This document shows positions 13,601-64,000 of a stretch of DNA of 64,000 bases, piece by piece. Source of the DNA: Loxodes magnus (taxonomy: Eukaryota; Ciliophora; Karyorelictea; Loxodida; Loxodidae); NCBI GenBank assembly GCA_946699065.1, contig CAMPDV010000153.1, positions 310,001 to 374,000 on the forward strand, given 5' to 3'. The notes beneath the pieces are model-generated. The model saw only the letters and a list, made by a program, of their open reading frames with translations, searched no databases and was not told the origin of the DNA. The translations under genes and the position numbers were made by a program. Within the stretch, counting starts at the first letter, position 1; every line of letters starts with the position of its first letter.

Positions 13601-14676
13601 TAAGCATCTTCAGGATTATCACCGAAACTTTATAAAAGAGCATTGAAATCTCCCATTAGTATATGTGGATTATCATTATATAAATTCAGCAATGTATTTA
13701 TTTGTTCATAAGCTAAATCTTTAACATCTTAACTTTTTCCACTATCAGGCATGTAACAAGACGTGATTAAAATATTATCCAGTTTAATTGTTATGAATCT
13801 ATTTATTTCTTTTTCAACTTATATATGTATTTCTGTACTATTAAATTCTTCTCCTACAATTAAGCATACACCTCCTCCTTTTCCTGAGTTCTTAAAATAT
13901 GTTTTAAATCCATTTATCAATATTGGAGGAAAGTAATCTTTTTATCAGGTTTCGTTTATTGATAAAATATCTATACTGTTATCTCTGATAAATTCTTCAA
14001 TATTCAAGCACTTGCTCGCTATTCCATTAATATTTATATGTCCCATCTTTATTTTTTAAATTTATTAGTCTTTTCTAATTTTTTCCGATCCTGCAGGTAG
14101 ACCACTTTCGTAAATGCAAATGCTTTTCTATCCTTATTGGTTAATCTAAATATGTACTAATCTTTTTCCATACTCAGGATGTTAATGATAATATTGTATC
14201 AAAATATATATTACTTACGTCGTATATTTTTTAAGTAGCTTTCTATCTATATCAATTTTACTTTTCACACTATCACATGTACCTTATTCTAAATCTTAAG
14301 TAACTGTGACATATCTACCCTATATATTTTACATTTCGTACTATGGACGTCTTCAAGTTTCGGATTTAATAAATTTTTAAAGTTATAGACTAGTCAGATT
14401 GAAATAACATATTATTTAATCGCACTCTTTTTTATTATTATGTTTACTCATACGTTTTGCTGACGGAATTGTTTTATCTTCTTCTTCATGTTTCCTTTTA
14501 AGAATATTAAAATTAATATTGAAAGATAAGGTTTAATTCTGATAAATAGCATCGATCGAATCTGTTTAGTTTTATTAATCTTTTTTTCATCTTTTAGTAG
14601 AATAATTAAATATATCTGTTTTCAAATTTTAATTAAGTTTTTAAAACTCTTCTATCTTCATCTCAAGTGTCTACAT
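10664..14676 (-). CDS. LINE1 ORF2: APE endonuclease-reverse transcriptase, frameshifted
   Basis: The ATG at 14676 is the first in frame; another at 14046 starts MGHININGI at the endonuclease. AP-endonuclease motifs run from ~14046 to 13390: ININGI, INET followed by TGA, GGGV, CYMPDS, GDFNA, SDHIPI. RT motifs follow: GKATGPDG (~12640), N-TGA-LPISLIN (~12470), LIDVEKMFDS (~12250), MQGSSHGPVLA (~12070), a GWADDLILL catalytic box (~11930) and TYLGVIL (~11730). A C-terminal CMCGEYETFEHIFKC motif (~10950) is shared with LINE2. TGA occupies Trp-like positions many times. One indel at a T run near 11467 shifts the frame, and LINE2 is continuous in the same region. The ORF ends with TGATGA. Confidence 0.85.
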
Positions 14677-16861: not shown

Positions 16862-19800
16862 TCACAGATTTTTTTCCAAATCTTCAATCACAGGGAAATT
16901 AACTACATCTTGAATTGGTTGTTTCTTTTTTATTACACTTTGCTTCGCTTTTTTAGTTTTTTTTATTTTTTTTGCTTTTTTTGCTTTTTTATCTCCTTCT
17001 TCTTCTATTTCTCCTATTTCATCTATTTCTCTTTTTTCTTCTTTTTCTCTTATTTCTCCTATTTCTTCTACCTCTTCTATTTGATCTTTTTATTATTTTT
17101 TTTATTTTTTTCCTTTTTTTATTTTTTTAACTTTTTTAGGCTTTTTGTCTGCTTTTTCTTTTTTTTCCTCTAATCTAAAATTAAGAACTTACATCTAAAG
17201 AGTATTAGAACATTTCATTTCTTCTGATTGCATGCTTTAAATGGATTCTTTTTATTAAGATTAAGTTTTTTAGGCTCATTTTTATACACTTGTTGAAGTA
17301 GCTATTATATTAAATAAGTTTTCAGTCTGGAGTTGATCAAATTGCTTATTTTCTTTTTGAGGCAACTATAAAATCTCAGGCTATTCTTCTTATAATGAAA
17401 TTTATGAAACATTAAGTGTTTTTTCTCGATCTCTATCAGAATTACTTTATGTTAGTCTAGATTAGTCATCAGGAAATGTTTAATTTAACTTTTTTAACTT
17501 TTTAATTTATCTTTAAATTCTACATTAGTGGATTATATCACTTATTGCGCAGCAAACAAACATTATTGCTGATAACGCGAAAAGTAAGACTGAGCATGTT
17601 ATAACTACAAGTCCAAACTTTTCATACTTGTCTGAACTAATAAGCATTCTTTACCCGCTTTAAGCTCCTTCAGTTACTATGTAGCAATAGAAATTTGTTG
17701 AAAACAGCACAGTCACCCAAATCTCAAGCACTAAAATAGTTACAAAGTTCAGTTTGCTTGTGAAAGGCCTATACTTAATCAGATAGAAAACTTAAGCCAA
17801 GTTAGTCAAAACCATCATTGTGATTTAAGCAATAGGCCACTGAGCAAAGCATGTAACGATGATGGATAAAATAATTCTTCTTATGCTGTAAAATGTATAA
17901 TATAGTATGGGAAACATTCCACTATTTAATTTAAGCTCATCAAACAGAGGTAAATGAGAGGCATAATAACTTCCAACTTCTGTATTTGTATCAAGAATTT
18001 AGATTTCATCTTTATTTTTGCAAATTTTTTAGAACTTAATTGCTTTTTTTGTAATTACAATACAAAAGCCTACTGAAAGTATCTAAAATAAAAAACTTAC
18101 AGAAAAAATAATAGAAAGTAAGAAGTTAATAATGTTAAATGCATTGCTGAAATTTGGATGACTTAGTTGTAGATAAACGGAAATATTTATATCAAGCAGC
18201 TTTGACAAAAGTAAGCTTAGAAGCATTCTATGTTTCACAAGCTCCAAAAATAATTTTTTTAATATCTTTTCAAATAATTTTATCTTGAAAATAATAGGCA
18301 TAATTATATAAACTACTAGCACGCAAGCAATGTAAATAAAGTGTAAGGCAAAGTTACACAAAAAGGAATAAACTCTATAATTTTGAATAAGCCAACAGTA
18401 TAAATCAATATTTTAGTGCTCAATTTCGTTTTCATCTACCAAGAAGAAAACATTATCTTTACCCGCGAAAGGCATTTTACTATTTGCCAATGAGAGATAG
18501 AAGCCATCTAAATTGTTTGGCTTCTTTACATTAATTAATCCATTTATACGAACTAACTAAAGAGCTACTATTAACTAAAATATTTTTTAAGCAGCCTGAG
18601 GAAGATAAAATCCAAAGAAACTTGCACCAATGGAACTCAAAGTTCACGCTATTGCAGTGCACAAGAAAACAGTTTCAAAAGTGACGGAGAATTGAATATA
18701 ATTTTTTTATCATTAAGGAATATCAAAATCTGATAGTGATTAAGGAATTATGGATTCTCTTTTCTCAGTTTCATTCGAAATAATGCATTATGAGCTTTCT
18801 AAAATATAGTTAGCTCCACACTCATAGCATTATTTTTGTTGATAGCTACAGTTTACGCAGTTTTTAAAAAGTTCTTCACAATCAATGCAGGTTCTATTAC
18901 CGTTATCAGAAGTTGATTCAGGACATGTTTTGTAGCATTCATTTTTATAAGATCTCATAGTATAATTGCACTCTTAACTTTAGTTTTATGTTTGATTTTA
19001 ATCATTAGTATCATTATTATTTGTATCCTTTATTTCTGAACATAAATTATTATAATCTATCTGAAATCCTTCTTCACACTATAAGCATATCTTTTATTCA
19101 CTGCTACATTTTTAGCATTTTGAAATTTCTTAGTAACAAAAACCACACTATACATTTTAGAAATAACTGAGTTCATCAGAATTATTGCTACAGTCTATAC
19201 AAGATCCACTCATATCATCATAAGTAAACTAAGGACACTCTTTTATACATTTTCCATTATAAAATTTACTCTAATCATCACATTGAATACACTAGTTCTC
19301 ATTTAAGCAAATATTACAGTTTTAAATTGATTTTTTGCAAGCGTTACATTAACCTTTCTAATCTAAGTAAAATCCTTCTTCACACTATAAGCATATCTCT
19401 TATTCACTGCTACAATTTTAGCAATTTGGAATTTTTTAGTTGCATAATCCACACTAAACGTTTTAGAAGTAGCTTAGTCCTTCAGGATTCTTACTACAGT
19501 CTATACAAGATCCAATCCTATCATCATAAGTAAACTAAGGACACTCTTTTATACATTTTCCATTATAAAGTTTACTCTAATCATCACATTGAATACACTA
19601 GTTCTCATTTAAGCAACTCTTACAATATGGTAAAGAATTCATTACAAGCTTTACATTAGCCTTTCGAATCTAAATAAAATCCTTCTTCACACTATAAGCA
19701 TATCTCTTATTCACTTCTACATTTTTAACAATTAGGAATTTCTTAGTTGCAAAAACCACACTATACATTTTAGAAATAACTGAGTTCATCAGAATTATTG

Positions 19801-22800
19801 CTACAGTCTATGCAAAATCCACTCATATCATCATAAGTAAACTAAGGACACTCTTTTATACATTTTCCATTATAAAATTTACTCTAATCATCACATTGAA
19901 TACACTAGTTCTCATTTAAGCAACTCTTACATTATGGTATAGATTCATTACAAGCTTTACATTAACCTTTCTAATCTAAGTAAAGTCCTTCTTTGCATTG
20001 TATACATTCCTTATGCTAACTTTTGCATAAATTGCAATTAGTAATTTCTTGAGTACATAACTAACATTCTGTATTCTAAGTATAATTCTAATGAGTTTAA
20101 GGACATTGATTTATACATAGATTGTTTAGAAGAATTGAATCAGGAAAGCATCTATCACATAGTTACTAATAATGATTACATTCTTTACAATTATTTACTT
20201 TACACTTGTTACATGTTATATTTGTATTATATCCTTCTTCACACTTAGTACACTAAGTTGCTTACTAATTACATTCTAAACATCTTTATAGTGTCTTATT
20301 ACATGCTTCACATATATGATCCTAGTCTAAATCTTACTGGTTATTTAGACATTACTCTTTACATTTCCTTTCTGAAAAGTAAAATGATTAATCATTGCAT
20401 TCACATGTATTAATTGATTTATTTAAAGTAGCATTTTCTCCACAAGATAAACAATTATACATTCCAGGACCAAAACATGTTAAACAAGTAGGATAACATT
20501 CTTAAACTGAGCAATCTTAAGATTAAGGACTAAGACAATATTTACTCTAACTAAAGCATTAAGTGGAACATGGATGCTATTAAAGCATCTATTGAATAAG
20601 TAATTTAGTGAATGCTACGTTATTTTTATAGAAACGAGGCTAAAATATAGATCCATTGAAAGATTAAGAGGGATGAAAAGGATTTCCTAAAGTAATATTT
20701 TGGTTTAGTTGAAAATGAGGAAATAGGAAAATGAGAATATCTTGAGTACACTGTATTTGATTAGACTTTAAGAATCCTACACATAAAGTTAGCTAATACT
20801 AATTTTAAGTTTAAACTATTTAACTCAAAGAAAAACTTATAAACAATCAATCATCTACAGACTATTACTTATTTGCTAAACTTTTATTTGCTAAAACTTA
20901 ATTTTAGTCATATAAGTTAAATTCTATTTAATCAGTCACAGAAAGCAAAAACTAGAAATTAGTTCCATCTATACTTAATATTTATCCTTAACTATATTCA
21001 TTAGGCTATAATCATACACTAAAACCAAAAGATTAATTAGAAGCTTAACTAGGATCATAGTCATAAAAGCTAAAGGATTAAGATAGAGATTATCATAAGT
21101 TTATTGTTTAGTTATTGGATATCAAGTCTATAAACTAAGGTTAGCATTCATTGTTTGATAGAGTAAATCCTTAATCACACTAGTAACATGAAGTACCATC
21201 TTTACTACATTTAATACAGCTTGGAATAGAAGTATCACATTTATAGCAATTGAGAGTTGATTGATAATAGAAATCTTAGGTACAATCATTTACACATATT
21301 CCACTTTAAAATATTTTATTTGGATCTTAACAACTACAAGTCTAAGTATTATAATCATAAGTACTAGTTACATCACATTCATAACATACTTATTCTTAAT
21401 CACATCATAAACAAGATGGATCACAATCATTTGATAAGCAATCTCATTCTTAAGGACCTTTACATTTCAAAGATAAAATAGGACATGTAAATAAGCAAGG
21501 ATAATTATCATAAACATATTAGAAGTCTTAACTTTTCATATAGTAATTATAAGTATAAAACTTTGTTTAATATAAAGTTCCTTAAAAGTTTTCTGAAGAT
21601 GATGATGATCCTAAATAAATTATTTAATCATCTTCAAATAAAGGTTATACTATACTTTATGTGATATTAGCTAGAACAACCAAATTCTTATTGAAAGGAA
21701 CTATATAACTTTCTATATTTGTTCCTATATTTACTGAGAAAGCTATAAATATTCATTCCTCACAAACAACTGATTAAGTAAAGATAAGAGGTGAAGTTGA
21801 TCCTATTTAAATAGTTAATTCTGCTTTTAGAGTATTAATGCTATAAGATACTTTTAGAATATTTGATTATTAAGTAGATAAAATAACTCCATTATTATTA
21901 CACTAAGATATTCAAGTACTAAATCCAAAAGATTTATTAGAGTTTACATTTGATGCTAAATATCCATATTATTTAAATGTTTCTTAATGGCTTCTTTAAT
22001 TATTAAGTTCATAAACATCTTATAAAGAAGGTAATAAACTAATTCACTAGAAGAAGCATTTATTATTTACTCAGATTAAGCCATTATCACATTTAGTACA
22101 AATATTTCCTATTTCATTACATTCTTAACAATTAGCAATTACTTTAGAGCATTCTTCACATATTTTATCCTTATTTTTATCTTAATTTTTACAACTACAA
22201 TTTTATACACAATCTCTATTTTCAAATTTCCAATCTACATTATTACATTCACATCTTCCAGTTATATACTTACCATTCTATCCACAATCTAAGCATTATA
22301 CATTACTAGATCCAAAACAATTTAAGCAACTACTATCACATTCACCTAAGCAATCATTTAGTTATGGACTTCCACAATATTTACTTCCACAACTTTAAAA
22401 GCAAGGATTTTCAAACCAAGCACTTCTATAAAACTCACTCTAGTTTTTATATTTATCATTTGCATAAAATCTCCCTTATAATATACTTCCTTACAAGTTA
22501 TTCTATGCATTAGATTATTCGCCAAAACATACTTAGTCATTTAACTCAAATTAAGGATATTAGATCTATATTAATACTTCAGCTTCACAAGTTTAAGTTA
22601 CATCTTCAAATATTCATAGACATGGTAGTCAGCTCTAAGGATTTTATGATGAAATTCCTAAGAAAAATCATTTGCTACATTAAGTTTAGTCTATTTGTTT
22701 CTATACTAAAGTAAATTAACTTTATTAAAGAGTTAAAGTTACTGTTATTTATTGCTTGTTATATTTAACTGAAATTTACTACTTATTTTACTAACTTACT

Positions 22801-24092
22801 GAGTCATAGATTTATAAAATTACTCCATTGAATAAACAGTTTTAATCTTCAAATCATAAGGAAATAGAAAAAGCCTTAGTAGAGTGTAAAGATGGATCAT
22901 ATTATAAAAAGTCGTTAAATGTTTTGCATATTGTTTAACTTTTTTAAATAGCTTAAGGAATTTCTTTATCTGTTAAGTTTATAAATGGATATTAAAAAGT
23001 AGTTACTTGTGTACAACTTAGTTTATCTTAGGATAAAGTATAACCTGGTAAGCAAGTTAAGCACTCTCATTAAGTAGTAACTTAGCAAGTATCACAATTA
23101 GCTATTACTTTACTACAATTGGTACATGCTCCATTAAGTTAATATTAATTACTTGAACATTAACTTACACATAAAGCTTCTGAAACTAGTTTATTAGTTG
23201 CTTATGTTGTACAGTTACATTTATTATTTCCAAAATTATCAAAATAAATCATAGTAGAACATTTTAAGCAATCACTAGATGAAGTTCCTTTACAATATTA
23301 GCAAGATTTATCACAAGTATTTCCGCAACTATCTTTTACAGGAGAATTACACATTTGATTAGGACAAGTTGGTAAACAAGGATTATACAAATAAGCTAAA
23401 TCTTATATATCTGCTTTTGAAAGTTCAGCATTTAAATAGTTGTAATATCTATGAGAAATAATTTATCCTTCAAAGTTTTTAGTTTTATCTTTACTTCCTA
23501 ATCAAAGATTATTAGCTGTCGAATGACTTACAATTCAATTTACAGGTGTATAAGTAAAATATTAGCAATCAATAGTAGTATAAAGTTTAGTAGAGCAAAT
23601 TTATAAATCATATTAGTTTTAAATAAGTTTTTGATAATTAATATTATTATGATTTATAGCTAAAAATTATCAATCACAACAAGGAGTACTAAAAGTATAG
23701 GTGAAGGATTTGGTTGGACTACTTAAAGCTCTATAAGTAGTGTAATTAGCTTTTAAAATATTTGAGGAGCAAATAATTTCAATTTTAACATATGTAAAAG
23801 GAGTTGTGTCGGATCTTTCAAAAATGGTTCCATTTGAACAATCTTTATTTTTAAATCAAGCACTCCAACTCATAAATTTATAATTATCTATAGAAAGATA
23901 TGATATTCCATAATTTAGATCAATTAGAAAATTATTAGATTTTGTTTTATCCATTGTATAAATATAATTATTACCACAACATAGTTAACTTGCAGCTGAA
24001 GTTCCACAGCATAAATTGAAGAAAGAGGGAACAGCTTAAGTTTAATAGTTATAAGTAATGATAAAAATTAAAATAAAGCATCTAATTTCCAT
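16862..24092 (-). CDS. Gene A: large LamG/cysteine-rich multi-pass surface protein, frameshifted
   Basis: ATG at 24092 (signal peptide MEIRCFILIFIITYNYQTQA), two 18-nt introns (18083-18100 and 17175-17192), tandem TGATGA stop at 16864-16859. The ectodomain is nearly identical to gene B: LamG-like domains alternating with CxxC-rich blocks, then tandem 102-aa repeats (CPQFTYDDMSGFCIDC type). There are three repeats here against two in gene B. After ~18738 it diverges into its own multi-pass membrane module and ends in a Lys/Glu-rich tail. In-frame TGAs sit at the same Trp positions as in gene B. A single +1 base insertion near 19636 in the second repeat shifts the frame. Codon phase is 2 above and 1 below this point, with the downstream module still well conserved. 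It is therefore a very recent pseudogene, an assembly error, or a frameshifted gene. Confidence 0.8.
17175..17192 (-). other. 18-nt intron 2 of gene A
   Basis: The minus strand reads GTAAGTTCTTAATTTTAG, with canonical GT and AG ends. Copy C has a 17-nt version at the aligned position. Length 18 keeps the frame either way, so the case rests on copy C, where removal is required. Confidence 0.6.
18083..18100 (-). other. 18-nt intron 1 of gene A
   Basis: The minus strand reads GTAAGTTTTTTATTTTAG. It falls inside a membrane segment, between LLSIIFS and ILSVGFCIV. It aligns with the 19-nt intron of gene B (41311-41329), whose removal is required by frame. Confidence 0.65.
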
Positions 24093-25061: not shown

Positions 25062-26870
25062 ATTAAATTAAATTAAATTAAATTAAAAATAATATAGTTT
25101 GCTTAATAGCTTTGAAGTTTTAAGTCTAAACTCAATACACTTCTACTTTTAAGTACTCTTGAAAATGTTGTAGTATTTCTTCTTGTCTCATTAAGATTAT
25201 ATTTACTTGTCTTATTTTCATTAAGTTTTAGAAAGAATATATTTGTTTTCATGTTTATTTTATTCTGCTTCATGTAGATTTTATTATTCTATCAATTTGA
25301 TTCATATAGTCTTTTTTGGAAAATATTTAATTTATTATGTTTTAATTATATTCTAAGAGCTCTTGTTCTATATTTTCATAAATATTTTCTTAGTTTATAT
25401 TATTTTACACTTTATTTTTGCTTTTAATAATTTTATCTATTTAGGTTTTAATATTATCTATACTTGTTTGGTAGTATTTACATTTGATTATGTGTTAGAA
25501 TGTCTCTTTTTCTTGACATAAGCATTAATCATATTCTTAAGGAATATGTCTTTCTTGAAGATCACTTCTAAAAAAAAGTAGTTAAGTTCACAGTCTGAAT
25601 ATTAATTTTGATGGTTGCATTTTCTCTTTGTTCAATAAAAAGTAGGTTATAATTGGGAATTTTTCTACATTTTTGAATTACTTTGTTATAATTTTTGCTG
25701 TGATCATTTCTTTTTTTCTTTTTTTTGTTGTTTTTGCTATTCTCTAAAATGTTTAATTAAAAAATTGTTCTTTAATTTTTACATCAATTTTTTTATCGAA
25801 TTACATCATATTTAGATTTTATAAAGCTTTTAAATCTATTTTAAATTTCTTTTACATTTTTTTAATTTATTTCTGTTATTAAGTCTTATTTTTTTAACTT
25901 ATTTAGAATAATTGGATAAACTTTTCATCTTTATTCTTAGATTATTACTATTGATTATATAAGTCATTTAGTTTTCTATAAAATTTAAAATATCTTTTTG
26001 CAGTTATTTATTCAAATCCAAGTCAGTTAAAATCTATGTGTTGTAACTCATTTCAAGATGCTTATGGCATTTTCATATATTATCTTATAATTTATCGTTA
26101 ACTTACATGTATTTAGTTTTTCACCTTTGTTATTCCAGTTTGTATTCTATATGGAATTATTTCAGCACCATATTCTAATTTAGGTAGAATAAATAATCTG
26201 AATAAATTTTTGAAATTAATTGGGATCGTCTTATTAAATCTGCTGTAAAATTACTATTAAAATAAGTACTTGCCCTACTAATATTTATTTTGTACTTTTT
26301 GTATATGTGTAATTAATTAATTATTCTGATCAATTGTGAATCCTAAATATTCAACAGTTTTCTTTTATTAAATTAGCTTCCCTTATATTTTCAAATCTAA
26401 TTTTTTTTAGTTCTCTTATTTCTCTTTACTAATATTAATGCATTCAGTTTTTATTAAGTTTATTTTTAATTTTATTATATTGAATATTCTTTAAGTTTGA
26501 TCTATTAATTATTACATTCTTTAAGCGTTGTTGGAGATTAGCAATAAATCGTCAGCTCATGCTAATTTTGAGTATTATGTATTTCCTATCTTGTATCCTA
26601 ATTTATTATATTATTCTAAGTATTACATAGCAATATCATAATAAATTATGGCTAGTATAGGTCCTGATGAGCTTCCTTAAAGTATACCATTTTTGTAGTC
26701 TATTTTTCTAGTGATTTAGTCTTCTAGTTAAAAGTGTATTTGTACTTGAGAATATATGTTTTTCAATGTTTTTATTAAGTTATCGGCTATTTTAAATAAT
26801 TATACAGATAAGATTTCTTCTAAGTATATTAGTTTCTAGTTCTATCAATTTACATAATATCTCTTTTAAT
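25062..26870 (-). mobile_element. LINE2: 5'-truncated non-LTR retrotransposon
   Basis: A minus-strand relative of LINE1 that starts inside the RT domain (about motif 3-4) and ends in a (TTTAA)n tail at 25062-25085. Five-prime truncation plus a simple 3' tail is the signature of target-primed reverse transcription. The 5' junction is approximate. Confidence 0.75.
25132..26862 (-). CDS. LINE2 ORF2 fragment: reverse transcriptase with C-terminal Cys/His motif
   Basis: A single frame (first codon bases at multiples of three) carries IYLEEILSVQLF, then NGILQGSSSGPILA, YYDIAMQYLE, the catalytic box LAWADDLLLIS (~26557), TVEYLGFTID (~26370), LFILPKLEYGAEIIP, and the C-terminal DQCLCQEKETFQHIIKC (~25500). 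Each aligns with LINE1 ORF2. The Trp before the ADD catalytic residues is TGA here (26559-26557) and TGG in LINE1 (11943-11941). A TGA at 25134-25132 is the likely end. No N-terminal endonuclease or first RT motifs remain, so the copy cannot act by itself. No frameshift was seen in the retained part. Confidence 0.8.
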
Positions 26871-27033
26871 TTTTAATTTCCTTCTATTTTTTTCTAGTTA
26901 CTTAATTCATAATGGTTATTGAAAATTTATATAATTAAAATTAAGGAAAACTTTTCTTTAATTATTATAATTAAAATCAAATGTATTATAAAAATATATA
27001 ATTAATTAAAAAATTTAAATATATAATTAAAAA

Positions 27034-27330
27034 AATGGCAGGAGTTTAGCTATTCTCTGATTAAATTTCTAGTTTTATGGATAAAGCAAAGAAACTAACT
27101 GTCGCTGGGAAGGTCTTGAGCTAGAGTCAATCTCAGCAAGGGAACAAAATTATTCTGGTTATCCACTCTCGCTAGCAGCTTAAAGCCTGTCGGCCCAGAA
27201 ATATGTAACTCCTTATCTGAAGGTTATTGAATTAAGCAACGGGATATCTGCTTTATGTGCGTCAAGAGAATACCCTGACTCATTTGGCTCGGAAGGAGTT
27301 TCCAATCTCTCGAAATGTAAATTTTTTAAT
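27034..27330 (+). repeat. SINE-like GC-richer repeat, copy 1
   Basis: An abrupt island of mixed base composition in AT-rich DNA. It shares ordered blocks with the repeat at 35068-35370: CTGTCGCTG, AGAGTCA, AGGGAAC, GTTATCC/ATTATCC, GCTT(A/G)AAGCCTG and GGAGTTTCC. It is flanked by AT-rich segments that form short direct repeats (TAATTAATTAAAA at ~27000 and ~27330). No credible protein or tRNA structure is visible. Confidence 0.55.
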
Positions 27331-27574
27331 TAATTAATTAAAATAAAATTATAGATGAGTGGAATGATTTTAGATAAATAACTGAATAATTTTTATAATT
27401 ACTTCAATCTAATTATTTATTTATAATTGTAATTCTATACAAATAATTATTCTTAATTAATAAATTTAAATAAGCTATTTTCTTTATATTTAATAGATAT
27501 TTCTTAAAATTTAAATATTAATTCAAATGTTATACTTAGATCAAAATCTTATTGGCTTATAATAATAGTAATAA

Positions 27575-28220
27575 TAATATATTAATTTGATGTCACCTTT
27601 ATTTTATTTGTCGCGTATTAGTTTATAAAAAGTCTCAAAATTCATCGTAAGACTCGTTGAAATCGTCCTTTCATATCCAGGTTCATATTATTAATAACTT
27701 ATCTACTGCCGCATATTTATCCTTTCTTTTCTGTTTGTGTTTTATTCCAGTCTCGATCCTTACCAAACGTTTACTTGGTTCTTCTTCTTTGAGTATCTAC
27801 TACTTAGTCGAGTCATTTTTCTCCATCAAATATTTTCTTCGATATAATTCACCTTTAGATGTTAAATAAACCTTTGATAAGTTTTTTCAGAATTTTATAT
27901 TTTCCTAATTTTGAAATTTATGGTATTTTTAACAGTTCTTTTTATGTGGTCATATCTTTCAACAGAAGCAACAATAATATATTTTTATTTCTTAACTATT
28001 TATCTATAATTTTTATTTTTGAATATTATTTTGTTTTATTATTCAATCTCCATTGGATCATGCATAGTTTTAATCATAACTTGCTCGTAGTTCATTTAAT
28101 TGATATTTCGAATTTCTTATATTTTTACTTCTTTTATTTTTATTTCTTGATTAAATAGATATGTTGAAGTTTTTTAGCTTAATTATATGTTCAGTATTTT
28201 ATTATTATTTTGGAGTTAGT
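27575..28220 (-). pseudogene. G10: degenerate zinc-knuckle retroposon
   Basis: On the minus strand a DPMEIE motif (compare DPMDIE in G1 and DPMMIE in G5) is followed, one frame away, by the knuckle-like CCFCWKIWPHKKNC (~27990). The 3' part (27590-27870) aligns base by base with the 3' part of G2 (47180-47400), and the end is a (TTA)n tail (~27560-27580). The frame change between the two motifs shows decay by a small indel. It belongs to the ORF1-only family described for G5-G8. Confidence 0.5.
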
Positions 28221-35370: not shown

Positions 35371-35524
35371 ATTAATTAATATTTTTTTAATTAAAAATAG
35401 ATTAAAAATATTTAAGAATTAAAATAAAATAAATATTACTTTAAATAGAAAAATTAAATTAAAAATAGATTTAAGTTAAAGCTTTGTTAAAAAAATTAAA
35501 TTAAAAATAACTTAATTCAAATAA

Positions 35525-38500
35525 GTTTAAAATAAACAGTATAATTCCAACTTTTAATTGTTTATAAATAAATGGAAACACTTAAGAGATAAATAAATTA
35601 AAACCTTTCTTTTAGACCCATGGGAATTAGATGCTTTATTTTAATTTTTATCATTACTTATAACTATTAAACTCAAGCTGTTCCCTCTTTCTTCAATTTA
35701 TGCTGTGGAACTTCAGCTGCAAGTTAACTATGTTGTGGTAATAATTATATCTATACAATGGATAAAACAAAATCAAATAATTTTCTAATTGATCTAAATT
35801 ATGGAACATCATATCTCTAAATTGATAATTATAAATTTATGAGTTGGAGTGCTTGATTTAAAAATAAAGATTGCTCAAGTGGAATCATTTTCGAAAGATC
35901 CGACACAACTCCTTTTACATATGTTAAAATTGAAATTATTTGCTCCTCAAACATTTTAAAAGCTAACTATACTACTTATAGAGCTTTAAGTAGTCCAGCC
36001 AAATTCTTCACTTATACTTTTAGTACTCCTTGTTGTGATTGATAATTTATAGCTATAAGTCATAATAATATTAATTATCAAAAACTTATTTAAAACTCAT
36101 ATGATTTATAAATTTGCTCTACTAAACTTTATACTACTATTGATTGCTAATATTTTACTTATACACCTGTAAATTGAATTGGAAGTCATTCGACAGCTTA
36201 TAATCTTTGATTAGGAAGTAAAGATAAAACTAAAAACTTTGAAGGATAAATTATTTCTCATAGATATTATTATAATCTAAACACTTAGCTTAGTACAGCA
36301 GATATATAAGATTTAGCTTATTTGTATAATCCTTGCTTACCAACTTGTCCTAATCAAATGTGTACTTCTCCTGTAAAAAATAGTTGTGGAAATACTTGTG
36401 ATAAATCTTGCTTATATTGTAAAGGAACTTCATCTAGTGATTGCTTAAAATGTTCTACTATGATTTACAGTGACAACTTCGGAAATAATAAATGTAACTG
36501 TACAACATAAGCAACTAATAAACTAGTTTCAGAAGCTTTATGTGTAAGTTAATGTTCAAGTAATTAATATTAACTTAATGGAGCATGTACCAATTGTAGT
36601 AAAGTAATAGCTAATTGTGATACTTGCTAAGTTACTACTCAATAAGAGTGCTTAACTTGCTTACCAGGTTATACTTTATCCTAAGATAAACTAAGTTGTA
36701 CACAAGCAACTACTTTTTAATATCCTTTTTTGAACTTGACAGATAAAGAAATTCCTTAAGCTATTTAAAAAAGTTAAACAATATGCAAAACATTTAACGA
36801 CTTTTTATAATATGATCCATCTTTACACTCTACTAAGGCTTTTTCTATTTCCTTATGATTTGAAGATTAAAACTGTTTATTCAATGGAGTAATTTTATAA
36901 ATCTATGACTCAGTAAGTTAGTAAAATAAGTAGTAAATTTCAGTTCAATATAACAAGCAATAAATAACAGTAACTTTAACTCTTTAATAAAGTTAATTTA
37001 CTTTAGTATAGAAACAAATAGACTAAACTTAATGTAGCAAATGATTTTTCTTAGGAATTTCATCATAAAATCCTTAGAGCTGACTACCATGTCTATGAAT
37101 ATTTGAAGATGTAACTTAAACTTGTGAAGCTGAAGTATTAATATAGATCTAATATCCTTAATTTGAGTTAAATGACTAAGTATGTTTTGGCGAATAATCT
37201 AATGCATAGAATAACTTGTAAGGAAGTATATTATAAGGGAGATTTTATGCAAATGATAAATATAAAAACTAGAGTGAGTTTTATAGAAGTGCTTGGTTTG
37301 AAAATCCTTGCTTTTAAAGTTGTGGAAGTAAATATTGTGGAAGTCCATAACTAAATGATTGCTTAGGTGAATGTGATAGTAGTTGCTTAAATTGTTTTGG
37401 ATCTAGTAATGTATAATGCTTAGATTGTGGATAGAATGGTAAGTATATAACTGGAAGATGTGAATGTAATAATGTAGATTGGAAATTTGAAAATAGAGAT
37501 TGTGTATAAAATTGTAGTTGTAAAAATTAAGATAAAAATAAGGATAAAATATGTGAAGAATGCTCTAAAGTAATTGCTAATTGTTAAGAATGTAATGAAA
37601 TAGGAAATATTTGTACTAAATGTGATAATGGCTTAATCTGAGTAAATAATAAATGCTTCTTCTAGTGAATTAGTTTATTACCTTCTTTATAAGATGTTTA
37701 TGAACTTAATAATTAAAGAAGCCATTAAGAAACATTTAAATAATATGGATATTTAGCATCAAATGTAAACTCTAATAAATCTTTTGGATTTAGTACTTGA
37801 ATATCTTAGTGTAATAATAATGGAGTTATTTTATCTACTTAATAATCAAATATTCTAAAAGTATCTTATAGCATTAATACTCTAAAAGCAGAATTAACTA
37901 TTTAAATAGGATCAACTTCACCTCTTATCTTTACTTAATCAGTTGTTTGTGAGGAATGAATATTTATAGCTTTCTCAGTAAATATAGGAACAAATATAGA
38001 AAGTTATATAGTTCCTTTCAATAAGAATTTGGTTGTTCTAGCTAATATCACATAAAGTATAGTATAACCTTTATTTGAAGATGATTAAATAATTTATTTA
38101 GGATCATCATCATCTTCAGAAAACTTTTAAGGAACTTTATATTAAACAAGGTTTTATACTTATAATTACTATATGAAAAGTTAAGACTTCTAATATGTTT
38201 ATGATAATTATCCTTGCTTATTTACATGTCCTATTTTATCTTTGAAATGTAAAGGTCCTTAAGAATGAGATTGCTTATCAAATGATTGTGATCCATCTTG
38301 TTTATGATGTGATTAAGAATAAGTATGTTATGAATGTGATGTAACTAGTACTTATGATTATAATACTTAGACTTGTAGTTGTTAAGATCCAAATAAAATA
38401 TTTTAAAGTGGAATATGTGTAAATGATTGTACCTAAGATTTCTATTATCAATCAACTCTCAATTGCTATAAATGTGATACTTCTATTCCAAGCTGTATTA

Positions 38501-40665
38501 AATGTAGTAAAGATGGTACTTCATGTTACTAGTGTGATTAAGGATTTACTCTATCAAACAATGAATGCTAACCTTAGTTTATAGACTTGATATCCAATAA
38601 CTAAACAATAAACTTATGATAATCTCTATCTTAATCCTTTAGCTTTTATGACTATGATCCTAGTTAAGCTTCTAATTAATCTTTTGGTTTTAGTGTATGA
38701 TTATAGCCTAATGAATATAGTTAAGGATAAATATTAAGTATAGATGGAACTAATTTCTAGTTTTTGCTTTCTGTGACTGATTAAATAGAATTTAACTTAT
38801 ATGACTAAAATTAAGTTTTAGCAAATAAAAGTTTAGCAAATAAGTAATAGTCTGTAGATGATTGATTGTTTATAAGTTTTTCTTTGAGTTAAATAGTTTA
38901 AACTTAAAATTAGTATTAGCTAACTTTATGTGTAGGATTCTTAAAGTCTAATCAAATACAGTGTACTCAAGATATTCTCATTTTCCTATTTCCTCATTTT
39001 CAACTAAACCAAAATATTACTTTAGGAAATCCTTTTCATCCCTCTTAATCTTTCAATGGATCTATATTTTAGCCTCGTTTCTATAAAAATAACGTAGCAT
39101 TCACTAAATTACTTATTCAATAGATGCTTTAATAGCATCCATGTTCCACTTAATGCTTTAGTTAGAGTAAATATTGTCTTAGTCCTTAATCTTAAGATTG
39201 CTCAGTTTAAGAATGTTATCCTACTTGTTTAACATGTTTTGGTCCTGGAATGTATAATTGTTTATCTTGTGGAGAAAATGCTACTTTAAATAAATCAATT
39301 AATACATGTGAATGCAATGATTAATCATTTTACTTTTCAGAAAGGAAATGTAAAGAGTAATGTCTAAATAACCAGTAAGATTTAGACTAGGATCATATAT
39401 GTGAAGCATGTAATAAGACACTATAAAGATGTTTAGAATGTAATTAGTAAGCAACTTAGTGTACTAAGTGTGAAGAAGGATATAATACAAATATAACATG
39501 TAACAAGTGTAAAGTAAATAATTGTAAAGAATGTAATCATTATTAGTAACTATGTGATAGATGCTTTCCTGATTCAATTCTTCTAAACAATCTATGTATA
39601 AATCAATGTCCTTAAACTCATTAGAATTATACTTAGAATACAGAATGTTAGTTATGTACTCAAGAAATTCCTAATTGCAATTTATGCAAAAGTGATTAAA
39701 AGGAATGTATACAATGCAAAGAAGGATTTTACTTAGATTAGAAAGGCTAATGTAAAGCTTGTAATGAATCTATACCATAATGTAAGAGTTGCTTAAATGA
39801 GAACTAGTGTATTCAATGTGATGATTAGAGCAAATTTTATAATTGAAAATGTGTAAAAGAGTGTCCTTAGTTTACTTATGATGATATGAGTGGATTTTGC
39901 ATAGATTGTAGCAATAATTCTGATGAACTCAGTTATTTCTAAAATGTAAACTGTGGTTTTTGTAACAAAGAAATTCCTAATTGTTAAAAATGTAGCAGTG
40001 AATAAGAAATATGCTTATAGTGTGAAGAAGGATTTTATTTAGATTCGAAAGGTTAATGTAACGCTTGCAAAGAATCAATTTAAAACTGTAATATTTGCGT
40101 AAATGGAAACCTCTGCATTTCGTGTGATGTTTCTTTCAATCTATATAACGGAGAATGTTTAAAATAATGTCCTTAATTTACTTATGATGATATGAGTGGA
40201 TTTTGCATAGACTGTAGTAAGAATCCTGAAGGACTAGACTACTTCTAAAACGTTTAGTGTGGATTATGCGACTAAGAACTTCCTAATTGTTAAAAATGTA
40301 GCAGTGAATAAAAAATATGCTTATAGTGTGAAGAAGGATTTCAATTAGATTAGAATAATATATGTTCAGAAATAAAGGATACAAATAATAATGATACTAA
40401 TGATTAAAATCAAACATAAAACTAAAGTTAAGAGTGCAATTATACAATGAAGTCTTATAAAAATGAATGCTATAAAACATGTCCTGAATCAACTTTTGAT
40501 AACGGTAATAGAACCTGCATTGATTGTGAAGAACTTTTTAAAAACTGCGTAAACTGTAGCTATCAACAAAAATAATGCTATGAGTGTGGAGCTAACTATA
40601 TTTTAGAAAACTAATAATGTATTAATTCGAATGAAACTGAGTAAAAAGAATCCGAAATTCCTTAA
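35525..40665 (+). repeat. Right arm of the gene A/gene B inverted repeat
   Basis: Inverted match to 18738-24165. It covers ~95 bp upstream of the gene B ATG and the entire ectodomain-coding region, and stops near the start of the membrane module. It is about 300 bp shorter than the left arm because it has one fewer 306-bp repeat. Confidence 0.85.
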
Positions 40666-42115
40666 TCTTCATATTAAAAACAAAAATTGCCACACTCACT
40701 TTAAGACTTCAATTTATCATAAAATGAATATTAATCTTTATAATTAGCTGAAGTTACTTAAATCATTCTTAAATCAACGGAATATCTTGCTGTTATTAAT
40801 TCAGCAGCAATAGGTAGTAACGTGGATTTTACATTTTTCTGGGTAACTTGGTATATTGATGAGCTAATAAAGATAACAGGCTTTATTAATGTTAAATTGC
40901 CTTAGTTTTTGTAAGGATTCTACTTTGTTCAATTTAATTTTGTGGAAAACTTATTACAAAAGTTTGGTATTAATTTAAATTCCCAAGCTGATTCTCAATA
41001 AAATGTACCTTATAACATATAACTACAAAGTACTTCTACTTCTACATTCCTAGCAAATTCCTTAGAGTTCTTTTGGAATTTAGTTTTACTGTTTGCTGCT
41101 TTTATTGTATTCAATTTAGTTAAACTAATATAAAAGCAACTAAGATAATTCCTCTAAAGAATATTAAGTAGACTAGTGTGGTCTGGAGTAATAAGAAACT
41201 TTATGAATTACTTGGTTACACTTTTATTAGGCTTATTTCTATAGACTTAAAATCCTGACTCATCTGATACTTATATAATCATTAATTTAGTATTATCCTA
41301 TCTAACCTTAGTAAGCTTTTATTATTTAGACTCTCTTAATTGGCTTCTTTATATGGATCGAAATTAAAATTCACTAATTTTATAAAATTTAACTTCAAGT
41401 TTAAAGCGAGCAAAGTAAAGATTTAGTAAGATAGTTTTAGAGAAAGTTTGGAGTGTTAATAGATGAAATGAAAAGCGAAAATAATATCTGGATGATATAC
41501 TTTTATCCCTTATTCATAATAAGAAGAGCTTTAATTTGTATAATCCTTATATTTGCTTAAGACTGTCCTAAACTATAAATTATCTCATGCACTTTGCTAT
41601 GCTTCCTCTAGTTCCTATATATAGCTACTAAGTAACCTCATAAAATCTCTAGAATCAATGCAGTCTACTTAGTAAATGAACTGTGGGTCACTATTATGTT
41701 TGCTTAAAATTGGATTTATTTAGAAGCAAACTAAGATTGGCATAATGATTGGGCATGATTCGTAGTTAATGTTACTTATTGCTTGGTTATAGCCAATCAT
41801 ACAGTGGTATGAGCAAATGTAGTGCAAAATACTTATAACTATTTTGAGCAAAAGTATTTTGATCGAAAAAGCAAGAAGCGAGCATAAATAGGATAATAAA
41901 GGATGTAAAATGAAGAAATTAAGGAAGTAGTAATGAACTTAACTTAATCATAAAATGTAACTACTAATAGAAGTGAAATTAGTATTTAAAATCCTTTTAA
42001 TACTTCTTAGGTTATATTAGAGGATTAAGATTTGATGTTTTAAAGAAAAACAATAGAAAAACCAGAGAAAAAGCAAAAGAAGATTAAGGAGAATGCATCT
42101 AAAACAATAGGATGA
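35620..42115 (+). CDS. Gene B: large LamG/cysteine-rich multi-pass surface protein
   Basis: join(35620..41310, 41330..42115), 2158 aa. A signal peptide (MGIRCFILIFIITYNYQTQA) is followed by four LamG/concanavalin-like domains (about residues 45-225, 365-570, 685-865, 985-1175). They alternate with Cys-rich CxxC blocks, the last long (1175-1670) with two 102-aa repeats. Each LamG domain has two signature Trp, and all eight are TGA (for example FGFSV-TGA-LQP and VDD-TGA-LFISFS). The C-terminal ~400 aa hold six or seven membrane segments, including PLFIIRRALICIILIFAQ. One 19-nt intron is needed for frame. The likely role is a surface receptor or adhesin (inference). The end is the first single TGA after the membrane part; a Lys/Arg-rich frame continues to ~42890 if that TGA is Trp. 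Confidence 0.85.
39863..40475 (+). repeat. Two tandem 306-bp cysteine-rich repeats in gene B
   Basis: Anchors at 39863 and 40169 (CPQFTYDDMSGFCIDC) are exactly 306 bp apart. Both units contain EIPNCQKC/ELPNCQKC and ICLQCEEGF. Gene A has a third unit. Confidence 0.8.
41311..41329 (+). other. 19-nt intron of gene B
   Basis: GTAAGCTTTTATTATTTAG. The frame upstream (codon phase 1 from the ATG) and downstream (phase 2, FGVLIDEMK and the membrane segments) join only if 1 mod 3 bases are removed. The 19-nt GT-AG segment does this and gives a continuous membrane helix, LSYLTL joined to TLLIGFFIW. Gene A has an 18-nt intron at the aligned site. Confidence 0.8.
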
Positions 42116-51861: not shown

Positions 51862-52430
51862 ATGCCACCGCAAGAAATACCTGACCTCTCTCAGGGAATA
51901 CCTAAAAAAATTTTAATAAAAATCTAATTTAATCGAATAATCACCTTAGTCGGATAAAGGACTATAATCTCAGGAATACTTTGAATAAACAGTTCAGTAG
52001 AGGATATCAAATATATAAAGCAACATATTCTAAAGATTGAAAAAATAGATGAAGAACTAATCCTTTAATTTCCATCTATAGAAGATGCAATAAATAGCAT
52101 ATAATCGTAAATGGGATATAAACTAGATGAGATTGATAAATAATTTAGTTAAATTCCATAAATGTTTAAATTTTAGCTTTCTTAACTCCAGTTTCAAATA
52201 AAAGAACTTTGAGAAAAATAGGATAATCAATAAGAAATATATAAAGAATCAAAGGATAAAAGGGAAGTATTCCTATGTATATCGAACTCAATGAATAATA
52301 ATAAGCATTAGAAGATACGCTGTTATGTATTTTAATAGTAACATCATTATAATAGATTCTGGTGAAGAAACCAAATCTATGAAAGCAATAGAAAAAATAT
52401 AATAAAAGACCTATTTCAAATATGGCCAAC
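51862..52430 (+). pseudogene. G3: zinc-knuckle protein with a ruined knuckle
   Basis: From the ATG at 51862 one frame reads MPPQEIPDLSQGIPKK and then Ile/Gln/Lys/Glu-rich heptads. These end in KIRCYVFQQQHHYNRFW, at codon phase 1 throughout. Aligned to CX2CX4HX4C, the first Cys and the His remain, but the second Cys is Phe and the last is replaced by Trp. In-frame TGAs fall in GIL-W-INSS and KEL-W-EKQ contexts. It is either a diverged relative or a dead copy; the end is approximate. Confidence 0.45.
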
Positions 52431-54998: not shown

Positions 54999-55011
54999 AT
55001 TCTAGTGATAT

Positions 55012-55935
55012 CACGATGTTTTTGCATCACCTCAATAAAGTTGGAGAGGAAATCTGAATCCAATCTCGGCCAGTCGTTTTTTTCTTAATCTTAACCTTTT
55101 TCTTAATCTTAACAACCTGGAATTCAAGCAGGATATGACGAGCAGAAGAAATCCTAAAAGGCGACTCACGTAATAAGTCCTACATCGGAGGAAAAGCCAA
55201 AAAGCAGTTGAAATCTGCTCTTTACCAGGAGGTGTTAGAATTTAATCCTTCATGCCAGATGAGCATGGAGTAGCTCTTCAAAGTGGTGCTGCATCTCCAG
55301 GAAGAGATTTGGAATCTGAGGAAGGATAATAAGAAGCTTATGAAACATTTCAGCCTAGCGGAAGGAATAGAATCCAGACTTATATCCTAAGAATGAGAAC
55401 TAAGCACTTTCTGAAGCATATCCTAAGACCAGAATAACTAATTCTAAAATTAGCTTCAGAAACAATCTGATCTGAGTAACAGACTGGAAAAATTAGAAAA
55501 GAAGCTAGACGAACAAAGGGGAGATCCAATGATGATTGAAGAGACCAACATGAAGACTTGTGTTAAACCACAAAAATTAGTGAAGAATTGTTACTACTGC
55601 AAATCGACAAAATATTGTGAAGACGCTGGAAGAAATTCCAAAATTTCAAGACGTAGTACTGGAATAAATAAAGGAATGCAAGCACAGCATAGAAAGAAAA
55701 AACAAATTAAGTAGAGACAAATCAGAGAGAGATTATACTTAAATGAACTATATTTCATCTACAAGAGAAAATCTGATTAGAAATGAAGATAGAATTGGAA
55801 ATGACATGAGCAATGTGAGGAGAGAAGAAGAGAGACTTTTAAAATTTTATTTTTAATACCGGATCAATCTGGAATCCAGTATGAAGAGGTGAAAATCCCC
55901 AATAATTGCTAAAGTTAATTTATCCAATTATTATT
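55012..55935 (+). mobile_element. G5: ORF1-only retroposon with 13-bp target-site duplication
   Basis: A 924-bp insertion bounded by ATTCTAGTGATAT at 54999-55011 and again at 55936-55948. It ends in AATTATTATT just before the second repeat. It encodes only the protein below. Confidence 0.8.
55016..55786 (+). CDS. G5 coiled-coil zinc-knuckle protein
   Basis: The ATG at 55016 is 4 nt after the target-site duplication. One frame runs 256 codons to a TGA at 55784. The order is: variable N-terminus, EVLEFNPSCQMSMEQL (~residue 75), a long coiled coil ending LEKLEKKLDEQ, DPMMIEE (~172), then the knuckle NCYYCKSTKYCED (~190) and a basic tail. The expected His is Tyr and the last Cys is missing, so metal binding is doubtful. 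In-frame TGAs replace Trp; STF-TGA-SIS aligns with NAF-TGG-NIS in G6. It is the closest relative of G6, which lies inverted next to it. The likely role is RNA packaging like LINE ORF1 or Gag (inference). Confidence 0.65.
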
Positions 55936-55999
55936 ATTCTAGTGATATAACCTTCAATTAAGTTCATAACTGCCTAAAATATTATTATTTTTGTAATAA

Positions 56000-56963
56000 T
56001 AATATTAATTTTAAGTTTTCCGTTTTAGGGATTTCCAACCCCGTCAGGAATACAGTAGTTCATGCTCCCTGCTGTTAAATATAAAAGTTCGGGTCGTCCA
56101 ATTCTAGCAAGATTGGAAACTCGGATTTTTCCAGGTTTTCCCTCCTTTAACTTGCTTTGTTTCCATCTTAATCTTGTATATTGAACCATCCGGGTTGCAA
56201 TACATTCTTTTCATTCTTGCTTCTTTTTTTTTCTTCTTTTTTTGTTCTTTTATCCAATAGTTTCTTTATTTCTATTAGAATTTCTAACACTTCCGATAAA
56301 AATGTCATACGCTTCGACAGCAGAAACATTTCTTTTTTATTTTGAATTATTTTCCTTGATTTACTTGCTCTTTCTAGGCTTCGATTTCCATTTGTATAGC
56401 TCCAGTTTCGCTTTACTTTTTCTTAAAAGTTTACAATTTCTCTTCTAATTTTCCGAGTCTGTTATCCAGTTCAGTCTGTTTCTAAAGCTAGTTTTAGGAT
56501 TCGTTAGTCTGACTTTGTGAGATATTCCAAAAGGCGTTAAGATCTCTTTCCTAGGATATAAGTATTGACTCAATTCCTTCTGCTAAGTCTAGCTTTGCCA
56601 TCAGTATATCATTGTCCTTCTTCAATCTCTTGACCTCTTCCTGTAGGTTCAGTACCACTTTGATGAGCTACTCCATGCTCATCTGGTCAGAAGGGTTGAA
56701 CTCTGATACCTCCTGGTGGAGAACAGACTTCATCTATTTCCTCGGTTTCTCGCTTGAGGTTGGAGTTTCCATGTGTATATTCTTCAAGGTTGCTTTCGTT
56801 CGTTTTGTTAGATTCCAAGTTGTTAGTTCAGTGTTGGTTAAGGTTGTGATAGAGAAGATTGTTAAGATTATTAAGACTTGGTTTCTTGCTTCCTCCCTTC
56901 CTTTTGGCTTAGGAAGAGATGGTATAGAAGCCTGACTTGAAACCTTCAACCATTTTTTAATTA
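56000..56963 (-). mobile_element. G6: ORF1-only retroposon with 19-bp target-site duplication
   Basis: A 964-bp insertion between exact copies of ATTATTATTTTTGTAATAA at 55981-55999 and 56964-56982. It lies only 33 bp from the second G5 duplication, so two related elements sit nearly tail to tail. Confidence 0.85.
56044..56953 (-). CDS. G6 coiled-coil zinc-knuckle protein, intact CCHC
   Basis: The main frame holds EVSEFNPSDQMSMEQL, a coiled coil (LNLQEEVKRLKKDN to LGKLEEKL), QMEIEA and CFCCRSVWHFYRKC (~56316). This is a perfect CX2CX4HX4C with the Trp written TGA. The frame goes on through a Lys-rich linker to a TGA at 56046. The ATG at 56953, 10 nt from the 5' edge, starts MVEGFKSGFYT, which matches G1 but is one base out of phase with the main frame. 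G1 shows the same phase difference. Either a small intron or frameshift is shared, or both copies lost a base. G6 keeps all zinc ligands, so it is a good candidate for a recently functional copy. Confidence 0.65.
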
Positions 56964-56982
56964 ATTATTATTTTTGTAATAA

Positions 56983-62569: not shown

Positions 62570-64000
62570 GAAATCATCAACTAATTAGCGAAATTAAAAG
62601 CACCAGGACCTGATGAAATGCAAGTAGGCACAATATTAGTAGGCTGGAAAAAACTAACAGAAGTAACATGTAAAATGATAGTTAAGATGATTTAAGAGAG
62701 AGTAATACCTTAAGAGATGAAATAATAATACATAATATTAATATACAAAAAAGGAGGACAGATGAACCCGGTGAATTATAGACCAATCTCTTTACTGAAT
62801 CATGCTTTAAAAATAGTAGATGCATGAATTTTCTAGCAACTATAAGGATATCATCATAATGATGAAAGCGAATATTAATATGGCTTTAAAAAAGGGAAAT
62901 CATGCTCACTATAAATTTTCAACCTAAGAACAGTATAGGAATGATCAATACGGAACAAAAAAGATGTTTTCGTAATATTTGTTGATATTAAAAAAGTGTA
63001 CGACTCGGTGCAAAGAAAAGATATATGATAAATCCTAAACGATCTAAAAGTACCGGAATAGATAATTAAACTCCTAGCAAACTTCTACTGTGAAGAAGAA
63101 ATTAAACTTAAAATCAATGAATAAATAGCAAAATCATTCACGACAAATAAAGGACTAAAACAGGGAAGCATAACGTCGCCAAGACTATTTAACTTAATAA
63201 TAGCAAGACTTCTCCATAGCTTGGAAGATTAAAAGCTAGGAATTACGATAGACTTTAAAAACTAAGAGGGATGAACACAAGAAATATATGCAGGATGTTT
63301 TGCATATGCAGATGACCTAGCCTTAATAAGAGAATGAGATTAATTAGAGGAAGTAATCAAAAATTTAACCTCATGGGCAGAAAAATACAAACTGGAAATT
63401 CCAGATAAAACAAAATGAATAATATGAAAAGCAGCAGAAAATAGAAACTGAGAAAATATAGGCAATATTATTGAGGTGGGAAATTTAAGAATCGAAAGAG
63501 TAACGTCCTCTTAGTACCTAGGGCATATAATAGAAGAGACCATCAGCTTTGAAAAACACATGGAGAACAGACTAGAAGTAGCATAAAAGATGTAAACATG
63601 AATACTGGGTAAAATAACAATGAATAAGGGATTAACACCATATAATGCAGGAATAATGATAAAAACGTTCGTAAACTCAGTATTCAGCTATGGGACAGAA
63701 GTTATCCCATGTTGTGAATAATTTGTAGGAAAATAAGTGATGGAACAATTAGAAATAATATAGAGAAGATCTTTACGAGCAATCATAGATGCCCCTTTCT
63801 AAGTGTAAAATGAGATGCTAGAATACGAGTTACAGTTTATGAAATTTAAACATTATCTATGGCAGAAAACGCTGAGATTAAGAGGCAGACTAATAAGTAA
63901 CTAAGGAAAAACAGTAGATGAATTAATGTTCGACCTAAGTAAAGAAGAGAACTTTATTTTTGAACAATACTGCACGACAATAAAATTAGAATTAAAAATT
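62570..64000 (+). CDS. Reverse transcriptase fragment (third LINE), runs off the window
   Basis: One uninterrupted frame to the window edge carries LKAPGPDEM, NYRPISLLN (~62780), YGFKKGKSC, VFVIFVDIKKVYDSV (~62975), GLKQGSITSPRLF (~63155), the catalytic CFAYADDLALI (~63300), SSQYLGHIIEE (~63510) and NSVFSYGTEVIP (~63680). I count nine in-frame TGA, each at a Trp-like place such as RKDI-W-QIL, and three TGG. It has FAYADD rather than the WADD of LINE1 and LINE2, so it is another lineage. It begins abruptly inside the RT domain after (TTA)n and lacks an endonuclease, so it is 5'-truncated. The absence of frameshifts suggests a recent insertion. Confidence 0.85.

Follow-up and report, generated by a model that had tools for sequence, protein, structure and literature searches.

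The karyorelict nuclear code (NCBI table 27), described for Loxodes and Parduczia, reads UAA and UAG as glutamine and UGA as tryptophan or stop, and the code of Condylostoma magnum (table 28) gives each of the three codons both sense and stop meanings. The macronuclear assembly of Loxodes magnus is reported to be rich in reverse transcriptases (RTs) of long interspersed nuclear elements (LINEs), with about 2,700 RVT_1 copies (PMC11441545). Two parts of the decoding apparatus have drawn attention in such organisms. In the release factor eRF1, altered TASNIKS and YCF motifs are reported to be needed together for UGA-only recognition, and Loxodes striatus is listed with RAQNIKS, FLCENTF and Ala (PMC4695839, Table 2); a change at eRF1 Ser70 has been linked to UGA readthrough in Blastocrithidia (PMC12153298). 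A Trp-tRNA with a 4-bp anticodon stem is reported to raise UGA readthrough, on the evidence of Blastocrithidia and Condylostoma tRNAs, and is cited for Loxodes and Blepharisma (PMC13092985, PMC12005148).

Here we examine 64,000 nucleotides of one L. magnus contig (CAMPDV010000153.1, below C153; the window, C153:310001-374000) together with the assembly that holds it (705,730,643 bp in 7843 contigs). The original prediction for this DNA held that all three standard stop codons are read as sense, with UGA as tryptophan and UAA and UAG as glutamine, in a karyorelict-type ciliate. Within genes, UAA and UAG are glutamine and UGA is tryptophan; the code is already published and is confirmed here, and conserved genes outside the window, the tRNA set and eRF1 bear out this core claim. 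We consider it highly probable that a single explanation covers these observations, namely an L. magnus macronuclear genome using the karyorelict nuclear code (table 27) with the decoding mechanism proposed below.

TGA at the signature tryptophans of a LamG-like gene

The gene that carries the argument inside the window, gene B, is laid out as follows.

35620..41414, forward strand: gene B exon 1, with four LamG-like domains, Cys-rich repeats and then the start of the hydrophobic C-terminal part
35854..36042, forward strand: LamG-like domain 1; both signature Trp codons, at 35854 and 36040, are TGA
36856..37044, forward strand: LamG-like domain 2; both signature Trp codons, at 36856 and 37042, are TGA
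37798..37959, forward strand: LamG-like domain 3; both signature Trp codons, at 37798 and 37957, are TGA
38698..38865, forward strand: LamG-like domain 4; both signature Trp codons, at 38698 and 38863, are TGA, with tryptophan the top of 20 readings
41415..41430, forward strand: putative 16-nt intron GTAAAGATTTAGTAAG, GT..AG, which puts the downstream frame in register (from sequence and frame)
41431..42115, forward strand: gene B exon 2, with a putative stop TGA at 42113-42115

Given the putative intron and the last TGA as stop, gene B is a single frame of 2160 codons (35620-41414 plus 41431-42115); published introns have a modal length of 17 bp, with those below 16 bp negligible (PMC11441545). 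Its 20 sense TGA codons, alongside 13 TGG, include both signature Trp positions of every LamG-like domain, eight of eight, as had been claimed. A random scatter of 20 TGAs among 2159 codons would hit all eight with a probability of 1.1e-17. Both Trp columns are among the 15 invariant columns of an alignment of the four domains in which TGA was pre-read as W. Scored against the PF13385 profile, domain 4 reaches 26.6 bits with TGA as Trp, compared with 18.8 for Phe (the best of the other 19 residues), 18.6 for Tyr and 15.5 for a neutral X. Of the claim that TAA and TAG stand throughout at Gln-like positions, their frequency in frame was confirmed: gene B has 147 TAA and 44 TAG against 34 CAR. 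In proteins outside the window glutamine is the best residue by BLOSUM62 for both codons.

The domain name needs a qualification. A PF13385 search finds one of the four domains, at 27.3 bits against a gathering score of 27.6, so the LamG profile check proposed with the original prediction succeeded in part: one domain is matched and Trp is the best residue in domain 4, but the score lies just under the cut-off and the other three domains go unmatched. Modelled with AlphaFold2 from the four domains, the fold comes out as an all-beta sandwich, at modest confidence (pLDDT 62.5, pTM 0.66). Foldseek matches to it are weak, with query TM-scores of about 0.5 or less and a pilin (7oa8, E 5e-6) in first place; the best 25 include neurexin LNS, agrin G3, Gas6 and laminin LG, besides unrelated beta proteins. 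Because the profile score is sub-threshold and the fold matches include LNS/LamG domains, we call the domains LamG-like.

A second gene resembles gene B closely.

18738..24092, reverse strand: gene A, an inverted near-copy of gene B, its extent set by similarity and its start mirrored from gene B

The two are 97.2% identical over 4836 bp in inverted orientation, with 38 synonymous and 64 other changes over 1577 compared codons, and in gene A one extra base shifts the frame near 19.64 kb, as judged from frames and repeat spacings. Since gene A is so nearly identical a copy, its TGAs add nothing, and the use of the same TGAs in gene A as support for the reading does not stand, the two genes not being independent. 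The duplication, 18738-24190 against 35522-40667, also contains 306-bp Cys-rich repeats, three in gene A and two in gene B.

Codon meaning in conserved genes outside the window

Seven proteins encoded elsewhere in the assembly were aligned to PDB chains, one homologue each, with all three codons written as X: kynurenine aminotransferase (KAT), 6-phosphofructo-2-kinase (PFKFB), UBE2V, eRF1, a protein kinase and two tubulins. Tabulating the residue opposite each in-frame TGA, as had been proposed, showed tryptophan to be enriched, at 7 of 17 sites against a background of 0.86% (binomial p 6e-11), and by BLOSUM62 Trp was the best residue, with a sum of 52 compared with 0 for the next. By protein, TGA faces Trp at 1 of 3 sites in KAT, 0 of 1 in PFKFB, 1 of 1 in UBE2V, 2 of 6 in the kinase, and 2 of 3 and 1 of 3 in the tubulins, one of which is beta-tubulin; eRF1 holds no TGA. 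The tubulins were chosen by TGA count alone and give 3 of 6. TGG faces Trp at 8 of 13 sites in the same seven proteins. TAA lies opposite Gln at 21 of 65 sites (background 3.7%, p 1e-14) and TAG at 6 of 21 (same background, p 9e-5), and neither codon lies opposite Trp at any of these 65 and 21 sites.

These alignments bear on a Tetrahymena-type code (table 6), under which UGA would be solely a stop and the in-frame TGAs would be signs of pseudogenes or introns, or of programmed readthrough confined to a few genes. We judge this extremely unlikely, since TGA falls opposite Trp in beta-tubulin, a second tubulin, UBE2V, KAT and the kinase, as well as at all eight LamG signature codons, and each of 150 RT matches scored across the assembly contains 3-9 TGAs; in its favour are the frame shift of gene A and the lack of TGA in the eRF1 body and in the 30 best-scoring tubulin domains.

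Gene ends and eRF1 point to UGA as the stop codon

Ten gene ends were inspected, of which nine could be placed: two eRF1 genes, beta-tubulin, UBE2V, KAT, S27, centrin, SHMT and one PFKFB, the kinase end being unplaceable. At all nine, a TGA stands at or just beyond the C-terminus. The UBE2V TGA coincides with the end of the aligned yeast Mms2 chain, and those of eRF1, KAT and S27 lie a few residues beyond the aligned region; the beta-tubulin, centrin, SHMT and PFKFB ends are what we take to be C-termini. In seven of the nine, the stretch from the last matched residue to the TGA is free of UAR. In this small sample the ends fit UGA as the sole stop codon. The original prediction was therefore right about the sense meanings and incomplete in its headline, which omitted that UGA is also the stop codon; it left tables 27 and 28 open, and the gene ends examined favour table 27.

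A Condylostoma-type code (table 28), with UAA, UAG and UGA each sense and stop, would give the same sense meanings, and in S27 and KAT a UAR stands two codons before the TGA, where a UAR stop is possible. Against it, TGA at all nine placed ends fits table 27 rather than table 28, with none of the seven unambiguous ends at a UAR, and the L. magnus eRF1 has the L. striatus motifs that are reported to be needed together for UGA-only recognition (PMC4695839); we regard table 28 as very unlikely. Two closely similar eRF1 genes lie about 35 kb apart on one contig (C196; loci L010/L074 and L011/L075), and both have RAQNIKS for TASNIKS, FLCENTF for YLCDNKF and Ala at Ser70. The best PF03463 match in the assembly was rejected as an eRF1, as it reads as a pelota-like protein. 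At the ends of the two eRF1 genes (C196:17000-23000 and 52000-58000), the terminal TGA is accompanied by another in-frame TGA within a few codons.

Trp-tRNA arrays with a 4-bp anticodon stem

The assembly carries two large arrays of Trp-tRNA(CCA) genes. One, at C67:482293-491213, has 48 copies spaced about 187 bp apart; the 40 copies scored are identical over 72 nt, and A27.C43 is unpaired in all five folded with ARAGORN. The other, which for the copies listed spans C148:155454-169431, has at least 52 copies with U27.C43, two of which were folded with ARAGORN. A pattern that leaves the first anticodon base free yields 126 Trp-tRNA places within three mismatches, and the 100 listed all have A or T at position 27, C at 43 and a CCA anticodon. 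In the folds, a 7-nt loop bearing CCA sits on a stem in which 27-43 is unpaired and 28-31 pairs with 39-42, giving a 4-bp anticodon stem; positions 9 and 24, counted on the C148-type sequence, are G. An exact G27-C43 pattern for a Trp-tRNA with a 5-bp stem has no match in the assembly.

The simplest way to read UGA would be a cognate Trp-tRNA(UCA), which might be encoded where the assembly or the list does not reach, or arise from the CCA tRNA by C-to-U editing, an event invisible in DNA. Such a tRNA, which the original prediction had proposed looking for in the same assembly, was not found by ARAGORN combined with a pattern limited to tRNAs whose T-arm is standard and has GG ahead of its loop, a pattern that would miss the UUA/CUA tRNAs of this genome, which have AG there; its three matches compare with 19 in the reversed control, and ARAGORN called none of them a tRNA. 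Set against a UCA tRNA also are the CCA anticodon and 4-bp stem at the 100 listed of the 126 places, such a stem being reported as sufficient for readthrough. A cognate UCA tRNA thus seems to us unlikely, and we retain the Trp-tRNA(CCA) with a 4-bp stem as the probable reader of UGA.

For the UAR codons, a pattern for tRNAs with UUA or CUA anticodons gives 258 places against none in the control, and the 100 listed bear ACTTTAAAT or ACTCTAAAT at the anticodon. These genes presumably resemble Gln tRNAs, and from that likeness together with the codon tally we infer that they carry glutamine. Several other patterns were set aside. A loose one (785 places, control 173) produced seeming CCA, CUA and UUA anticodons that, where inspected, were register slips on Gly(TCC), Arg(TCT) and Lys(TTT) tRNAs, the C67 array being real; a UAR-anticodon pattern (451 versus 104) returned, in its first 100, mostly the same Lys and Arg slips, and a further one gave nine places against nine in the control. 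Among seeming CUA tRNAs, that on C353 is without a full anticodon, that on C3149 is Arg(TCT) by ARAGORN, and that on C362 (L089) is no tRNA. An RF00005 search gave 63 matches, crowded by a single Lys-tRNA family. Within the 64-kb window, no RNA gene was found by Rfam at the gathering score or by ARAGORN.

Regular spacing is also seen for CUA tRNAs (C130:557670-566519), UUA tRNAs (C214:232621-237622) and Lys tRNAs (C103:669738-672972 and C78:681122-688206). Amplification of tRNAs in tandem seems to be a common trait of this genome, and the Trp arrays are therefore no special evidence of dosage for UGA. Trp-tRNA arrays with two different mismatches and no paired form found may be new: no description of Loxodes Trp-tRNA arrays turned up in the literature listings searched, and the word tRNA is absent from the main text of PMC11441545, supplements aside.

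On the observed codon meanings, tRNA genes, eRF1 motifs and gene-end TGAs we propose the following mechanism, in which the effect of the 4-bp tRNA, the weak recognition of UGA and the role of the mRNA 3' end are inferred from the literature. Abundant tRNAs of the Gln type, bearing UUA and CUA anticodons, would decode UAR, and UGA would be read near-cognately by Trp-tRNA(CCA) with its 4-bp anticodon stem and A27.C43 or U27.C43. The eRF1, with Ser70Ala and with changes in its TASNIKS and YCF motifs, would be blind to UAR and weak for UGA, so that it may prevail only near the mRNA 3' end, which would decide where UGA is a stop. A 3'-end effect of this kind is published for table 27, where nearness to the poly-A tail, with a short 3' UTR, sets stop against sense.

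Reverse transcriptases and the evidence against tryptophan

The window also contains RT frames and a pair of inverted arms cited in support of the tryptophan reading.

11422..14487, reverse strand: LINE1 RT frame, box TGG-ADD at 11932-11943
25900..27999, reverse strand: LINE2, the stretch searched, with an RT frame, box TGA-ADD at 26548-26559; RVT_1 46.8 bits with TGA as Trp
62600..63952, forward strand: third RT, RVT_1 112.9 bits with TGA as Trp, nine in-frame TGA
55409..55423, forward strand: F-TGA-SIS (G5), in the arm 55206-55503
56518..56532, reverse strand: F-TGG-NIS (G6), in the homologous arm 56438-56735

The G5 and G6 difference is as described, both motifs being present in arms that are 74% identical inverted copies. 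The contrast between TGG-ADD and TGA-ADD survives as to the boxes themselves, both of which are present. The residue before ADD in the RT box is usually Tyr or Phe. In LINE1, Trp is the best of five readings against RVT_1 (W 97.3, Y 94.9, X 93.0, F 92.7, L 91.9 bits), whereas in LINE2 the profile prefers Tyr and Phe (Y 51.0, F 47.8, W 46.8, L 43.4, X 42.6). The third RT does hold nine TGAs in frame, but RVT_1 shows no preference for Trp there, contrary to the claim that these are Trp-like sites: Trp at all of them gives 112.9 bits, a neutral X 114.4 and Ile, the best, 118.8, and Trp outscores only Gly and Pro, 17 of the other 19 residues ranking above it. Beyond the window, an RVT_1 search of the assembly turned up 3403 preliminary candidates; the 150 that were scored all matched, in keeping with the published richness in RTs. 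Eight RT copies have 8-10 TGA and one TGG each in 310 codons. When 11 RTs are aligned, nine being near copies, 19 columns hold TGA, and one of these, the ADD box, also has TGG.

The third-RT score weighs against the explanation adopted here, and several other points join it. In the seven conserved proteins, TGA lies opposite a residue other than Trp at 10 of 17 sites (Ile twice, Leu twice, and Ser, Phe, Arg, Asp, Gly and Pro), the corresponding figure for TGG being 5 of 13. KAT, UBE2V and the kinase were chosen after a TGA at a Trp-like place had been noticed, which is a selection, and a third tubulin (L094) was left out for want of a PDB match at E 1e-40. Alongside these stand the UAR codons near the S27 and KAT ends, the narrowness of the UCA pattern, and the 26 of 126 Trp-tRNA places that lie outside the list examined. 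The RT profile scores are also what would favour UGA as another residue (Cys, Arg, Tyr or other), with Ile, Met, Ala and 14 more ranked above Trp in the third RT and Tyr preferred in LINE2. The domain 4 scores and the seven Trp matches with their BLOSUM62 sum, given above, speak against any such residue, an assignment that we find hardly credible, and tryptophan remains the reading we adopt.

Uneven use of sense UGA

Sense UGA is unevenly distributed along gene B, where codons 1-1680 contain 18 TGA and 3 TGG and the last 480 contain 2 TGA and 10 TGG (p 1.6e-4). Other A-ending versus G-ending codons shift likewise but less (p 7e-5), the type of domain changes too, and the KAT gene has TGAs at residues 239 and 288 of 396 translated. 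In view of the general codon shift and the late TGAs of KAT, we do not claim the polarity of gene B as general. The 101 codons between the last sense TGA and the stop fit the published depletion of sense UGA over the roughly 20 codons preceding the stop (PMC11441545), and as a lead we note that in gene B the depletion extends beyond that distance.

Among 150 tubulin matches, many of them mutual copies, the domain is free of TGA in the 30 with the highest scores; of the other 120, 116 have 1-3 and four have none. This suggests that conserved, perhaps highly expressed tubulin copies avoid UGA. The matches compared include those on C64 and C237 against those on C441 and C629. Uneven use of sense UGA is possibly new, a lead drawn from few genes.

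A joint reading of the tRNA and codon data can be offered tentatively, as one we would sooner doubt than accept. All L. magnus Trp-tRNA may be of the unpinned, 4-bp kind, the A27.C43 and U27.C43 arrays being homogenised separately, and may serve both UGG and UGA, with the use of sense UGA graded by the cost of misreading: absent in the best tubulins, present in most divergent ones, above UGG in RTs and in the LamG part of gene B, a gene of surface type, and shunned over its last 480 codons, not just the final 20. If an all-unpinned Trp-tRNA set and graded UGA use held genome-wide, the cost of an ambiguous codon would be measurable within one genome.

Comparison with known codes

Raw DNA thus confirms a code in which any codon can be sense, and one genome sets side by side its likely decoding parts: UUA/CUA suppressor tRNAs, unpinned Trp-tRNAs and a Loxodes-type eRF1. 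Gene calling with the standard or Tetrahymena code would break many genes here; the predicted failure of such gene finders is a known problem, for which the authors of the assembly made a special gene finder (PMC11441545).

The codon meanings agree, with no difference found, with table 27 as known from Loxodes and Parduczia, UAA and UAG being glutamine and UGA tryptophan or stop. Sense UGA is commoner here than is reported for Parduczia, at 20 of 2159 codons in gene B against 0.120%, a comparison of few genes in a non-random sample. The eRF1 motifs equal the RAQNIKS, FLCENTF and Ala70 row of Loxodes striatus. The Condylostoma magnum code (table 28) is similar in that all 64 codons can be sense and, according to the published accounts, in a 4-bp Trp-tRNA with no UCA Trp-tRNA found; it differs in that all three codons also serve as stops there, whereas here TGA stands at each of the nine placed gene ends. 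Blastocrithidia shares a changed eRF1 position 70, Gly there and Ala here, and an unpinned Trp-tRNA with a CCA anticodon, a 7-nt loop and loss of the top anticodon-stem pair. By contrast, in L. magnus the mismatch is A27.C43 or U27.C43 and the genes lie in two large arrays, UAR codons mean glutamine rather than glutamate, and the stop codon is UGA rather than UAA.

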